From assembly GCF_000218895.1 (NCBI RefSeq), contig NC_015703.1:5345001-5409000 (forward strand): DNA of 64,000 nt, given 5' to 3'. The position numbers and the translations under genes are program-made. The first letter of the stretch is position 1. Each line of letters starts with the position of its first letter. Source of the stretch: Runella slithyformis DSM 19594. Its GTDB lineage: Bacteria > Bacteroidota > Bacteroidia > Cytophagales > Spirosomataceae. Shown in pieces: positions 1,543 through 41,453 of this stretch. The notes under the pieces are model-generated. The model was not told the DNA's origin, did not search any database, and was given only the letters and a program-made list of their open reading frames with translations.

Positions 1543-2481
1543 TCAGCCCACCTCAATTATTTTTCCAACATTGTTTTGTTTCATCTTTTCGGGGATCACT
1601 TTTAAAATTTCCGTTTTCATGGCCTCAATAATCCCTTTTTTGAGATGATGCCGCAGCATCACGATGCTCACTTCGCGCATGGGAATCGGCGAGTGAAAAC
1701 GTCGTATCTGCAAGCGCTGAGACTCGGTCAAATCTTTAAGGGATAATTCCGGCAATATCGTTACTCCGCCATAATGCTCCACCATCCGCTTGAGTGTTTC
1801 GATGCTTCCGGCCTCGTATTCAAAATTTCTCATGTGCGAATGCTTTTTCCGTAACTCACAGATGCGTAGGATTTGTCCCCGAATACAGTGTCCTTCTTCC
1901 AAAAGCCACAGGTGATTGGGGTCAATATCTTCCGAAAGTATAAACTCCTTCTGAAAGGCTTTTTCGGATTCCGACAGGTAAGCCACAAACTCTTCATAAA
2001 AAAGCGGATATTCAGTGATGCGGTCATCCAACAACGGAGTCACCACAATCCCAACGTCAAGCAAATCTTTATTTAATTTGGAAAGGAGCTGCTCAGTGGT
2101 AAGCTCGGTTACTTTGAGCTTCACCTGCGGATACTTTTTAATGAAATTATCCAGAAACAACGGCAACAGATACGGCGCGAGCGTTGGGATGATCCCAACC
2201 CGAATTTCACCGGCCACGGTCCCGCGATGTTCATCAACAATATCTTTAATCTTGGAGGATTCCCGGAGCAAAACTCGGGCCTGTCGGATGATCAACTCCC
2301 CGATTTCGGTCGGCACGACGGGTTGCTTACTGCGGTCAAACAGTTTCACTCCTAACTCGTCCTCCAATTTTTGGATCTGCATACTCAGCGTAGGCTGCGT
2401 CACAAAACAGTTTTCGGCGGCGATGGCAAAATGCCGGTAGGTATCCAGGGCAATCAAATATTCGAGCTGAACTAAGGTCAT
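1543..2481 (-). CDS. oxyR: OxyR-like LysR-family peroxide-sensing regulator
   Basis: LysR-type regulator of 312 residues with an N-terminal winged helix-turn-helix (about 1-60) and a periplasmic-binding-like effector domain. The segment EEGHCIRGQILRIC places cysteines at residues 199 and 208, the same numbers and nine-residue spacing as the redox pair of E. coli OxyR. This makes peroxide sensing by disulfide formation very likely. The upstream region carries an inverted repeat (2489-2506) in the leader and a divergent promoter (2515-2546), the arrangement of an autoregulated LysR gene with a divergent target. The target here may be a small RNA instead of a protein gene. Specificity is inferred from the cysteines. 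Confidence 0.9.
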   Translation of the reverse strand: MTLVQLEYLIALDTYRHFAIAAENCFVTQPTLSMQIQKLEDELGVKLFDRSKQPVVPTEIGELIIRQARVLLRESSKIKDIVDEHRGTVAGEIRVGIIPTLAPYLLPLFLDNFIKKYPQVKLKVTELTTEQLLSKLNKDLLDVGIVVTPLLDDRITEYPLFYEEFVAYLSESEKAFQKEFILSEDIDPNHLWLLEEGHCIRGQILRICELRKKHSHMRNFEYEAGSIETLKRMVEHYGGVTILPELSLKDLTESQRLQIRRFHSPIPMREVSIVMLRHHLKKGIIEAMKTEILKVIPEKMKQNNVGKIIEVG

Positions 2482-2488
2482 AGATTTT

Positions 2489-2506
2489 ATTGATCACATT
2501 ATCAAT
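2489..2506. promoter_or_regulatory. LysR/OxyR-type operator candidate in the oxyR leader
   Basis: A perfect inverted repeat ATTGAT-N6-ATCAAT lies 8 bp upstream of the oxyR ATG. It fits the T-N11-A shape of LysR-family boxes. It is centred about 55 bp upstream of the predicted start of the divergent transcript, which is the usual place for an activator site. A further ATTGAT is at 2510. Binding by OxyR is inference. Confidence 0.5.
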
Positions 2507-2514
2507 AGTATTGA

Positions 2515-2546
2515 TTTGAATCATAAGAACGGTAAAGATACCTTTG
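2515..2546 (+). promoter_or_regulatory. Bacteroidetes-type promoter facing away from oxyR
   Basis: TTTG at 2515-2518 and TACCTTTG at 2539-2546 are separated by 20 nt, matching the Bacteroidetes -33/-7 consensus. The expected transcription start is about 2553. No protein gene follows on this strand. A perfect terminator stem follows about 60 bp later. Confidence 0.6.
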
Positions 2547-2552
2547 TAGTAC

Positions 2553-2650
2553 ACAAATCAATGATTTGACACATCGAATCAACACTTGCCTAACGTATGA
2601 GATAATTTAAATGTAAAAATGCCCGGTATCACCCGGGCATTTTTACATTT
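2553..2650 (+). ncRNA. Candidate OxyS-like small RNA divergent from oxyR
   Basis: The segment starts where the promoter at 2515-2546 should initiate and ends at an intrinsic terminator (2611-2648), giving a transcript of about 95 nt. At its 5' end is a perfect 7-1-7 palindrome, CAAATCA-A-TGATTTG (2554-2568), which could be a small hairpin or an operator. The middle, roughly 2569-2610, has no obvious structure and no ORF. The layout resembles oxyR-oxyS of enterobacteria, where the small RNA is divergent from its regulator. No sequence similarity to OxyS is claimed. The alternative is an unstable divergent transcript without function. Confidence 0.42.
2611..2648. terminator. Intrinsic terminator, bidirectional
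   Basis: A perfect 16-bp stem (2611-2626 with 2633-2648) encloses a 6-nt loop. The outer part pairs A-runs with T-runs, so it works as a terminator in both directions. It ends the aminotransferase gene at 2649-3779 on the minus strand and the candidate RNA on the plus strand. It directly abuts the TAA stop of the aminotransferase. Confidence 0.85.
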
Positions 2651-3779
2651 ACACAAAAACCGTTTTCATTCTCCTCAAAACTTCCTCTAAGGTAGCGCGG
2701 GTACAGGCAAAATTGAGCCGGATAAAACCCGGCTCTCCAAAGATAGCGCCATCGTTGATACCGACTCCCGCCTCTTCCAGTCGCTTAGGTACGTCGGTCA
2801 GTCCGGTACCGCGCACGTCGATCCAGGCCAAATATGTCGCTTCGAGAGGCCTCATTTTTATCCCTGTCATTTGATTGACCGTTTCCAGAAGTAAGTCGTG
2901 ATTTCCTTTCAAATAAGTCAATAACTCCGCGTGCCACTCCGCGCCGTCACGGTAGGCAGCCAATGCCGCCTCGTACGCATACGACGAAAGCATGGGCATC
3001 AACCCTGCTTTGGTACGCATGAACTTCGCACGCAATTCGTCATTGGGGATCACTACCAGCGAGCACCCCAAACCCGCCAGATTAAAGGTTTTGCTCGGGG
3101 CCAATAAGGTCAGACTGCTCTGAGCAGCTTCCGGGCCAAGCGTGGGATAGGTTATATGCTCTTTGGAATTATCTAAAACAAGATCACAATGTATTTCATC
3201 AGAACATACGATGATTCCGTGTCGCCGGCAAATGTCATGCAGTCGTTGGAGTTCTTTCCGCGTAAACATCGTTCCAACGGGATTGTGGGGGTTACAGAGC
3301 AAAAATAATTTTGTAGAGGGGGTAATGGCAGCCTCAATGGCTTCAAAATCAAGTGTCCAACGTTCATTTATCAGTTGTAAGGGGACCTTCTGTAAATCCC
3401 GGCCGGCCATTTCGATTTCGATCATAAACGGGTGATAGACCGGAACGGCGGTCATTACCGCTTCCCCCTCCTCGGCAAAGGCCCTGATGGCAAGCCCGAT
3501 CGCAGGCACCAACCCGCCAAGCCACACCATCCATTGCTTTTGTATTTGCCACTCATGGCGCGTACGGAGACGCTCAATGACGACCTCATTGAGTTCATCG
3601 GGGCAGCTTGCATACCCGAAAATACCATGTTCAGTTATTTTGTTCAGCGCTTCAAGAATGGGAGGCGCTGCCTGAAAATCCATGTCGGCCACCCATACCG
3701 GCAATACGCTTTCGGGGTATTTATCCCATTTATAACTATTGGTGTGGCGACGGTTGATTTCTTTATCGAAAAGGCTCAT
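2649..3779 (-). CDS. patB: PLP-dependent aminotransferase-fold C-S lyase (MalY/PatB type)
   Basis: Fold-type I PLP enzyme of 376 residues, close to the PatB/MalY cystathionine beta-lyase subgroup. Visible marks are the N-terminal VLPVWVADMDFQ, NPHNPVG (residues 163-169), SDEIHCDLV (193-201) and the PLP lysine Lys230 in APSKTFNLAGL. Members cleave cystathionine or related C-S compounds to give homocysteine or thiol, pyruvate and ammonia. The strong terminator just after its stop ends its transcript. A second Met is not needed; ATG at 3779 starts the conserved N-terminus. Substrate assignment is by family. Confidence 0.88.
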   Translation of the reverse strand: MSLFDKEINRRHTNSYKWDKYPESVLPVWVADMDFQAAPPILEALNKITEHGIFGYASCPDELNEVVIERLRTRHEWQIQKQWMVWLGGLVPAIGLAIRAFAEEGEAVMTAVPVYHPFMIEIEMAGRDLQKVPLQLINERWTLDFEAIEAAITPSTKLFLLCNPHNPVGTMFTRKELQRLHDICRRHGIIVCSDEIHCDLVLDNSKEHITYPTLGPEAAQSSLTLLAPSKTFNLAGLGCSLVVIPNDELRAKFMRTKAGLMPMLSSYAYEAALAAYRDGAEWHAELLTYLKGNHDLLLETVNQMTGIKMRPLEATYLAWIDVRGTGLTDVPKRLEEAGVGINDGAIFGEPGFIRLNFACTRATLEEVLRRMKTVFV

Positions 3780-3829: not shown

Positions 3830-5038
3830 CTAGTGGGTTGGTTTATCTTTTGCGGGAGCGGATGCGTGATAATCATGTTGAATCCGTTGCGCGTATTTTT
3901 CCATCAATTCAAGCACACGTGCCCGGCTTGCGGATTGAACGATCATCCCGATGTGATATTCTTCGTTCATACGCCATACGATTTCGGAGTCGTTAAAAGG
4001 CGAAGAATCCGGCCATTGCTGACGGGCCAATGAGATAATGATACCTGAATATTCATTTCGAACCTCAGGCAGGGAATACGTCTCCTTTAAGGCCAACGCA
4101 TTTTCTACCTTTGCCCATTCCCGCCATAAATTAATGCCCGACGACATTTCAACCATTTCGGCTAAATGCGCCCCACCAACCCGGGAAGCCGTTTCCAGAA
4201 AATAAAACTCTCCGTCTTCGTGGCATTTGATGACTTCTGTATGAGAGGCGCTGTAATTCATATTGAATGCTTTCAGCACCTGCTCGTTGATTTTTTTTAG
4301 GGCCTTAGCATCTTTCGAGTTGAATTCTACGGTCACGGAGCGAAAGATACCGCCTCCGTGCGCCACTTCAAACGGCGTATTGAGGTATTCGCTGCTCCGG
4401 TGAAAAATGACTTTTCCGCCCAGTGTCAGCGCATCAACGTGATACACAGCGCCCGGTTTAAATTGCTCGATCAGAAAGAGATGCCTTTCTTCGCCCAAAC
4501 TGTGAATGGCCTGCCATGCCTCGTCAAAACTGTGTACTTTTTTGATACCGGCCGCCGAAGCCTCTGCGCGGGGTTTGATGACCCACGGCGGGGATGATGC
4601 TCGCAGGTATTCAGTGACCTCAACGTCATTGAACAACGCACTGAATACGGGCACTCTGATTCCGGCATCGCGGGCCTGCACACGCATGGCCAGTTTATCA
4701 CGAAAATAACGGGCGGTGGTTTGTCCCATGCCCGGAATCCGAAAATGCTCGCGCAGGATGGCAGCTTTCTCTACATCAAAGTCATCCAAAGCCACCACCC
4801 TGTCTATTTTACGGGTTCGCATCACATAAGCGAGCCCCTTGATCATATTTTCAAAATTCGCGAGAGAATTGGAATCATCTTCCAGGTAAAAGGTTTCGTC
4901 GATAGACTCATACGGCCAGGCTTTGCCTTCGGTTCGTTTGGCCGTCAGCAGATAGACCGTATTACCGGCCTCTTTGCAGGCCCGCATAAAATCCCCACCT
5001 TTAAAAAAACAGGTAATGCAGAGAAACGTAAGACTCAT
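3830..5038 (-). CDS. ATP-grasp carboxylate-amine/thiol ligase of unknown substrate
   Basis: A 402-residue ATP-grasp protein. The N-terminal about 110 residues form the pre-ATP-grasp fold. The lysine-containing nucleotide strand is WVIKPR (152-157), and the metal-binding region is FLETASRVGGAH (280-291), where the acidic residue replaces the usual ExNPR. Such enzymes join a carboxylate to an amine or thiol via an acyl phosphate. It stands alone, 50 bp from patB on the same strand, so co-transcription is possible. The substrate cannot be told from sequence. Confidence 0.8.
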   Translation of the reverse strand: MSLTFLCITCFFKGGDFMRACKEAGNTVYLLTAKRTEGKAWPYESIDETFYLEDDSNSLANFENMIKGLAYVMRTRKIDRVVALDDFDVEKAAILREHFRIPGMGQTTARYFRDKLAMRVQARDAGIRVPVFSALFNDVEVTEYLRASSPPWVIKPRAEASAAGIKKVHSFDEAWQAIHSLGEERHLFLIEQFKPGAVYHVDALTLGGKVIFHRSSEYLNTPFEVAHGGGIFRSVTVEFNSKDAKALKKINEQVLKAFNMNYSASHTEVIKCHEDGEFYFLETASRVGGAHLAEMVEMSSGINLWREWAKVENALALKETYSLPEVRNEYSGIIISLARQQWPDSSPFNDSEIVWRMNEEYHIGMIVQSASRARVLELMEKYAQRIQHDYHASAPAKDKPTH

Positions 5039-5205
5039 AGGTTTAGTTGATTTTTTTAGGTTGTTGATGTCAGAGAGGCGATTGTATCAGCCCTCGATGT
5101 CGGCCACGCCGGTAGCCTGCTGCTAGGTTGATTAAAAAGAATGTGTTTCCTTTGCGGGGACTTTCCAAACATACAAACTATCAATCTTTCAACCAAACGT
5201 AAGCT

Positions 5206-41152: not shown

Positions 41153-41185
41153 TTTGGAGAATCGTTCCCTTTTACCATACCTTTG
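41153..41185 (+). promoter_or_regulatory. Promoter of the cobalamin-riboswitch transcript
   Basis: TTTG at 41153-41156 and TACCTTTG at 41178-41185 are 21 nt apart. The start would be near 41192, just at the 5' edge of the riboswitch. Confidence 0.7.
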
Positions 41186-41191
41186 TCACAG

Positions 41192-41376
41192 TTATTGGTG
41201 CCTGATGTACACCTCAGCGTGTACCGAATGGCTTAATAGGGAATCCCGTTAAAATCGGGAGCTGTTCCCGCAACTGTACGTTTCTGCAAGTTGTCGCCCA
41301 CTTTCGTCACTGTTCGGTAAAATGAATGGGAAGACCGGCGCCAATGAAACAAGCCAGGAGACCTGCCAACAATCAT
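41192..41376 (+). promoter_or_regulatory. Cobalamin (AdoCbl) riboswitch
   Basis: The conserved blocks are present in order: GGTGCC near 41198, TTAATAGGGAA (41233 on), GGGAGCTGTTCCCGCAACTGT, GTCACTG, and the B12 box AAGCCAGGAGACCTGCC at 41351-41367. It precedes a BtuB-like receptor by about 80 nt, which would form the expression platform. High cobalamin should shut off the receptor and lipoprotein genes. Confidence 0.94.
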
Positions 41377-41453
41377 TCTTAACGAGTCCTTACGGGTAAT
41401 GAGGTAACGTTGAGCGTTCGATTTCACATTCACATTTTCTGTCAAATACCTTG

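Follow-up and report, generated by a model that had tools for sequence, protein, structure and literature searches.

A putative OxyR-controlled small RNA divergent from oxyR in Runella, and a second small RNA as its candidate partner

Our results suggest that a small RNA gene controlled by OxyR lies divergent from oxyR in five Runella genomes, and we hold this view with high confidence. A 24-nt block located just before the terminator is probably the functional part of this RNA. The best reading of the sequence data is that of an OxyR-activated target mimic titrating a second small RNA candidate, labelled RNA X, although here we regard the chances as evenly balanced.

The DNA analysed, called the window throughout, is a 64-kb stretch of a Runella genome of 6.92 Mb (genome G000), and coordinates without any other prefix are window positions. 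Among the 13 Runella genomes compared, the five whose OxyR is at least 89% identical to that of the window (89-100%, the window's genome included) are referred to as carriers. The wider search set comprised 222 genomes of the family. The features of the locus are collected in Table 1.

Table 1. Features at and around the promoter divergent from oxyR (window positions)
Feature	Position	Strand	Remarks
oxyR, 312 aa	1543..2481	-	ATG at 2479-2481; redox cysteines 199 and 208
OxyR-type operator (putative), ATAGATTTTATTGAT...ATTGATTTGAATCAT	2480..2524	+	match to the katG matrix; alignment of the five carriers
-33 box, TTTG	2515..2518	+	kept in all five carriers
-7 box, TACCTTTG	2539..2546	+	TACATTTG in the other four carriers; predicted +1 at about 2551
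Variable 5' part of the predicted RNA	2551..2581	+	small hairpin, 2562-2569/2574-2581
Conserved 24-nt block, ACACTTGCCTAACGTATGAGATAA	2582..2605	+	single-stranded by prediction; can pair with the RNA X seed
19-bp hairpin	2608-2626/2633-2651	+	terminator of the predicted RNA, probably of the C-S lyase gene too
PatB-family C-S lyase gene	2649..3779	-	stop codon overlaps the base of the hairpin

A katG-type promoter beside oxyR

The gene that an earlier note on this DNA had taken for oxyR is indeed oxyR: its product carries the cysteine pair in the form GHC-X8-C, although its top NCBIfam match, OxyR, scores 208.8 bits against a curated cut-off of 329. A C-S lyase gene lies upstream of it on the same strand, ending at 2649, and this is the gene adjoining oxyR in all five carriers. 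According to the passages available from PMC7366714 and PMC9723704, the sigma-A promoter consensus of the Bacteroidota is TTTG near -33 and TANNTTTG near -7. The site divergent from oxyR conforms to it, with TTTG, 20 nt and TACCTTTG on the + strand (2515-2546), as had been proposed from the spacing. Across the window, TTTG-N19-21-TANNTTTG was found six times compared to 1.04 expected, a number reached in none of 100 shuffles, while the -7 box alone was not enriched there (54 vs 48 expected). The LysR-type inverted repeat claimed upstream is also present: it reads ATTGATcacattATCAAT (2489-2506) and is centred near -53, the previous estimate having been near -55. The putative OxyR-type operator around it shares bases both with the start codon of oxyR and with the -33 box.

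The same architecture is seen in most of the katG promoters read in the genus. In seven of the eight katG upstream regions that were read, TTTG-N20-TANNTTTG occurs within the operator ATCAATTTGA[T/C]TTAT; in the katG promoter of the window's own genome, TTAG replaces TTTG. A weight matrix was built from six of these eight promoters, all from other Runella genomes, those of G000 and G006 being excluded because the search pattern gave no full-length site in them, and both strands of the 64 kb were scanned. The top match was the site divergent from oxyR (+ strand, 2470-2548), with 12.9 bits; the second reached 4.5, and the mean of the scan was -60 with a standard deviation of 12.6. At the corresponding site the other four carriers scored 21.7-33.5 bits and genomes G005 and G002 27-29, whereas the non-carriers G009 and G011 gave -11 and -10. 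By its sequence, the promoter divergent from oxyR is of the OxyR/katG type, and it is from this similarity to the katG promoters that a putative operator is assigned to the small RNA promoter.

What lies downstream of this promoter differs among the Runella genomes. In G002, G003, G005 and G007, whose OxyR is 50-51% identical, TTTG-N20-TACTTTTG at the equivalent place drives katG. In the five carriers katG is located elsewhere in the genome (at G000:C4:3607864 in the window's genome), and in the carrier G010 it is split into two pieces on two contigs. A rough survey of 80 named oxyR neighbourhoods, in which divergent genes were recognised from their first residues, found katG, catalase or peroxiredoxin divergent from oxyR at several loci and, at many others, a gene pointing towards oxyR.

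The predicted RNA and its conservation

The unit downstream of this promoter has, as judged from sequence, the attributes of a bacterial small RNA gene: a promoter of its own, no conserved ORF, a terminator-like hairpin and conservation in relatives. That no ORF intervenes between promoter and hairpin, as claimed before, is borne out in that none is conserved, the longest reading in the window's predicted transcript being one of 14 codons from a TTG. A coding reading of the transcript was rejected; longer frames exist in the relatives, none of them common to the five carriers. The fold of 2551-2655 is unusually stable (z = -7.8). The terminator had been described as a perfect 16-bp hairpin; the pairing is perfect, and the stem has 19 bp rather than 16. 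A simple terminator scan of the window left this hairpin (2608-2651) unlisted, which we attribute to the T-run sitting inside the stem.

Operator, TTTG-N20-TAC(A/C)TTTG, block and, as a structure, the hairpin are kept in all five carriers. The block itself is invariant in four of them, and G010 carries a single substitution, G to A at 2588. By contrast with this invariance, the segment between promoter and block has drifted in both sequence and length (35 to 103 nt), and the 5' part of the RNA in the other carriers is much longer than in the window and unalignable. At third codon positions, the oxyR of the window shares only 50-54% identity with those of the other four carriers; an unconstrained 24-mer would therefore not survive. 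A 15-kb comparison with three carriers found 16 invariant runs of at least 20 nt, mostly coding as far as annotated, one of which is 2581-2605 and intergenic. In the hairpin alignment, changes on both sides were seen at 4 of the 17 pairs, and 5 of the 17 are broken in one sequence because the stem of the window differs. Conservation of promoter, middle region and terminator had been set beforehand as the test of the proposal: promoter and terminator are conserved, and of the middle region only 24 nt are.

The unit appears confined to the carriers. The block was not found in the other eight of the 13 Runella genomes at up to 3 mismatches, and its 22-nt core, at up to 2 mismatches, occurs in five of the 222 family genomes, which are the carriers, and in none of the other 217. 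G009, G011 and G012 (OxyR 78-79% identical) have neither promoter nor block. A covariance search of relatives had been suggested earlier. With a model of block plus hairpin, 51 of the 222 genomes match at E <= 0.1, five of them strongly (E 8.6e-12 to 1.7e-16), these five being the same carriers from which the model was built. Nothing else convincing was found in the 222 genomes: the best match after the carriers has 43.7 bits, and in the five further alignments inspected the hairpin is good and the block poor, so we read them as terminators.

It could be argued that the locus encodes no functional RNA, a view to which we give a low probability. The stretch 2482-2607 would then be operator and promoter of oxyR, TTTG/TACCTTTG a promoter left over from an oxyR/katG pair, and the hairpin a terminator of the C-S lyase gene only. 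The hairpin does lie directly behind the C-S lyase stop codon in all five carriers; it may therefore terminate that gene, and alone it is no proof of a + strand transcript. Bidirectional terminators are common, and in relatives it is katG that is divergent from oxyR. However, a relic promoter would not retain its spacing in five genomes, and an intergenic block of 24 nt, distant from the operator, would not be expected to stay invariant amid drift. In the other four carriers the tails of the hairpin also speak for the + strand, their T content being 9-10 of 12 on the + side vs 6-7 on the - side; in the window they are even, 8 vs 8.

Some further observations concern the same region. In G009 the C-S lyase gene (84%) and oxyR (79%) are still in order, the promoter is degraded, and an insert of two genes separates them (L155:4578-6552, contig C222). 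These are PtuA and PtuB of the Septu system by PADLOC models, and this defence pair occupies the place that the small RNA has in other species. The idea that the block could be a dif-like recombination site was rejected, eight of the 13 Runella genomes being without it. Other intergenic or nearby stretches with long invariant runs were noted. One, at 5123-5199 in the window, has runs invariant in three other Runella and contains a promoter-like site TTTG-N20-TATGTTTG on the - strand (5166-5197) that points at an ATP-grasp gene (3830-5038). Another, about 3.3 kb to the left of the window (L151, G000:C4 ~5341650-5341730), has three runs lying close together, each of 20-30 nt and unchanged in three other Runella; the inverted repeat TTGGCGTTCGGAACGCCAAT is one of them.

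RNA X as candidate partner of the block

Counting the block itself, the five carriers contain 42 sites that match the reverse complement of the block core at up to 3 mismatches, vs 49 for a reversed control; contexts were looked at for 30 of these loci. One further site, CTCATAGGTTAGGTTAG, recurs at the same non-coding place in all five carriers, in an element ending in a terminator-like hairpin with a T run. We labelled this second small RNA candidate RNA X (L212, G000:C4:4739639-4739809, - strand; relatives L213-L229, L231-L237, L240 and L241); its predicted length in the window's genome is about 97 nt. Its 171-nt element matches 61 of the 222 family genomes at E <= 0.001, some of them via the hairpin or another short piece alone. 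Across 30 aligned loci, the seed CTCATAGGTTAGGT is exact in 25 (L225, near a contig end, among them) and reads CTTATAGGTTAGGT in two; the remaining three (L230, L238 and L239) are seedless and match through the terminator only. The exact 14-mer is present in one copy in each of the 13 Runella genomes, and the near-invariant seed was seen in 14 loci outside the genus.

Genera differ greatly in the sequence preceding the seed. Of the 14 loci outside Runella that have the seed, 12 carry a TACCTTTG (11) or TAATTTTG (1) box 48-84 nt before it on the same strand, which supports transcription in that direction. The Runella copies have no TANNTTTG box at that place and read GACATTTG. The longest T-run after the seed measures 6-7 in 22 of the 26 loci measured and 3-5 in the other four. 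Rfam models at RNA X (Thr_leader, ar35, STnc40 and others) all score under their gathering thresholds. Upstream of the Runella copies there is an inverted repeat, GCGTATTTCTACGC or a near variant, which may be the site of a regulator. Taken as sequence, RNA X is a conserved and apparently undescribed small RNA candidate.

Block and RNA X seed can form 2+7+7 = 16 pairs with -23.1 kcal/mol. Only one of 4000 random 40-mers of the window pairs equally well with X (-40.5), and that one is the opposite strand of the block itself; X pairs better with the block than with any other of the window's 604 ATGA-centred 40-mers. Shuffled blocks matched X equally well in 60 of 200,000 cases, a figure uncorrected for X having been picked out by a genome-wide search. 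The mean unpaired probability is 0.71 for the X seed and 0.81 for the block in the window; in the other four carriers it is 0.54-0.71 for the block, a moderate predicted accessibility. Complementarity to a small RNA seed, kept in all five carriers, is what would be expected of a sponge or target mimic; its significance is moderate. Note that X is kept in the eight Runella genomes without the block, and is therefore independent of it.

Is X the true partner? We consider this about as probable as its opposite. The main rival is that the block has other partners: an OxyR-controlled RNA would act through it on mRNAs of its own or on a protein, and the match to X would be coincidental, a possibility that we rate as unlikely but serious. 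Promoter and block conservation stand without X, the complement searches gave no numerical excess, and X was chosen from 42 sites for its recurrence in five carriers. Coincidence is harder to reconcile with the conservation of X, whose near-invariant seed is the very part matched, or with the extent of the match, which covers most of the block and stops where block conservation stops. Moreover, the only substitution in the block preserves the pairing, G2588 to A in G010 converting a G-U pair into A-U.

Two other explanations start from the same letters, and both seem to us very improbable. Read on the - strand, the block agrees with 12 of the 14 letters of the X seed CTCATAGGTTAGGT. It might act on that strand: transcripts running on from the C-S lyase gene would bring an X-like motif, CTCATACGTTAGG, into the oxyR leader, where it would have a target or a binding protein in common with X. 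On that strand, however, the motif comes after the hairpin, where few transcripts are expected, no promoter lies between hairpin and block, and in X the motif precedes the terminator. Alternatively, the block could be a minigene, ATG AGA TAA being translated and X acting on its start. ATGAGATAA is kept in all five carriers, and conservation of the block breaks off at this TAA; yet a frame this short easily arises by chance in 24 nt, no frame exceeding it is common to the carriers, and the pairing with X accounts for most of the conserved letters. Of the mechanisms that fit, titration of X by the block is the most specific.

The seed of X contains CAU, the complement of AUG. In the window's genome, CCTAACCTATGA with up to 1 mismatch occurs at 30 sites vs 30 in the control. 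Two of the 30 were set aside (X itself and the block), and 8 of the remaining 28 are gene starts, a ninth candidate (L281) being doubtful and uncounted, compared to 4 of 43 permuted contexts; among the ATGA sequences of the window, 28 of 604 are gene starts. Over the whole genus, CCTAAYYTATGA with G-U allowed has 64 sites vs 57 in the control. Thirteen of the 64 are X, and 26 of the remaining 51 were counted as gene starts; a script had flagged 30 of them, and L324, L336, L337 and L340 were dropped as antisense to a longer ORF.

One of these starts is that of pfkA, whose product scores above the cut-off of the NCBIfam equivalog for 6-phosphofructokinase. In 12 of the 13 Runella genomes the pfkA start codon lies within a complement of the X seed; none was seen in G008. 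The start region reads CCTAACTTATGA (L274, G000:C4:122323, in the window's genome; L313, L330, L332, L338, L305, L341, L307, L320, L321, L350 and L352). A second gene, encoding a product of at least 501 aa (open at the end of the stretch read) that has no Pfam or NCBIfam match, carries an X complement at its start in all five carriers; in G000 the site (L291) has one mismatch and stands in another register. Calculated pairing with X is -19.6 to -22.9 kcal/mol for three pfkA starts and -25.5 and -25.8 kcal/mol for two starts of the second gene. The pfkA leader is conserved beyond the complementary site, so its conservation need not stem from X and is suggestive only. Among the mRNAs that X may hold down, pfkA is the best candidate.

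A possible mechanism and its relation to known systems

From what was computed, namely the OxyR-type promoter, the conserved unit, the complementarity, and the fact that both X and the stretch complementary to it at the pfkA start are conserved, we infer the following course of events. Transcription of the + strand would run from 2551 to about 2651, starting from an OxyR-activated promoter like those that drive katG in other Runella. The resulting small RNA would measure about 100 nt here and more in the relatives. Its working part would be the single-stranded block just before the terminator (2582-2605), imitating the translation start sites predicted to bind the RNA X seed CUCAUAGGUUAGG. Peroxide would induce the RNA, which would pair with X and titrate it, and the mRNAs repressed by X, pfkA being the foremost candidate, would be released. 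More tentatively still, and with less than even probability in our view, the two RNAs may form a redox switch: X would block the starts of pfkA and other genes, and one Runella clade would have gained an OxyR-driven mimic by which peroxide resets glycolytic flux post-transcriptionally. In such a switch, the mimic would have originated from a divergent promoter of the oxyR/katG type that turned non-coding.

OxyR activates the divergent oxyS and represses itself, according to the text available from PMC5002191. The likeness in geometry to oxyR/oxyS of enterobacteria, pointed out in the earlier note, is upheld by our results: a non-coding and conserved unit of about 100 nt is divergent from oxyR, has a promoter overlapped by the putative OxyR operator and ends in a hairpin resembling an intrinsic terminator. 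Membership of the OxyS family was rejected. At gathering scores, Rfam found only a cobalamin riboswitch and tRNA in the window and no OxyS, and no sequence similarity had been claimed before. (The riboswitch, RF00174, lies at 41179-41384 on the + strand with 96.7 bits, and a promoter-like site TTTG-N21-TACCTTTG at 41153-41185 overlaps its start.) Unlike OxyS, the RNA proposed here has a TTTG/TANNTTTG promoter, its conserved part is a single 24-nt block before the terminator, and its apparent partner is another small RNA. Its restriction to five Runella genomes makes an origin independent of OxyS likely.

Small RNA sponges, of which SroC and ChbBC/ChiX are examples, provide the other parallel. 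As in such sponges and target mimics, a conserved single-stranded stretch is predicted to be complementary to the conserved seed of a small RNA. The RNA proposed here differs from them in having its own OxyR-type promoter beside the regulator instead of being processed from an mRNA, and in that its partner X is apparently undescribed; the sponge class is mentioned in the passages available from PMC7366714. The oxyR/katG, oxyR/catalase and oxyR/peroxiredoxin pairs of the Bacteroidota have operator and promoter in the same position relative to oxyR, and in contrast to them the divergent unit here is non-coding. An oxidative-stress transcript of Porphyromonas gingivalis, a 429-nt candidate, was rejected as a counterpart, as it is not placed beside oxyR in the parts of PMC6231650 seen. 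In the open literature, as far as titles, beginnings of abstracts and passages go, neither the oxyR-divergent RNA nor RNA X was recognised, and the passages available from PMC6231650, PMC5002191, PMC7967276, PMC9723704 and PMC7366714 describe neither.

If the proposal is true, the Bacteroidota would possess a small RNA divergent from oxyR that arose independently of OxyS. Bacteroidota mRNAs are without Shine-Dalgarno sequences, as stated in the portion of PMC6847099 available. The analysis also brings RNA X to light, for which a specific target, the start of pfkA, and a specific way of acting can be proposed: pairing over the AUG, in a phylum that does without the Shine-Dalgarno sequence.
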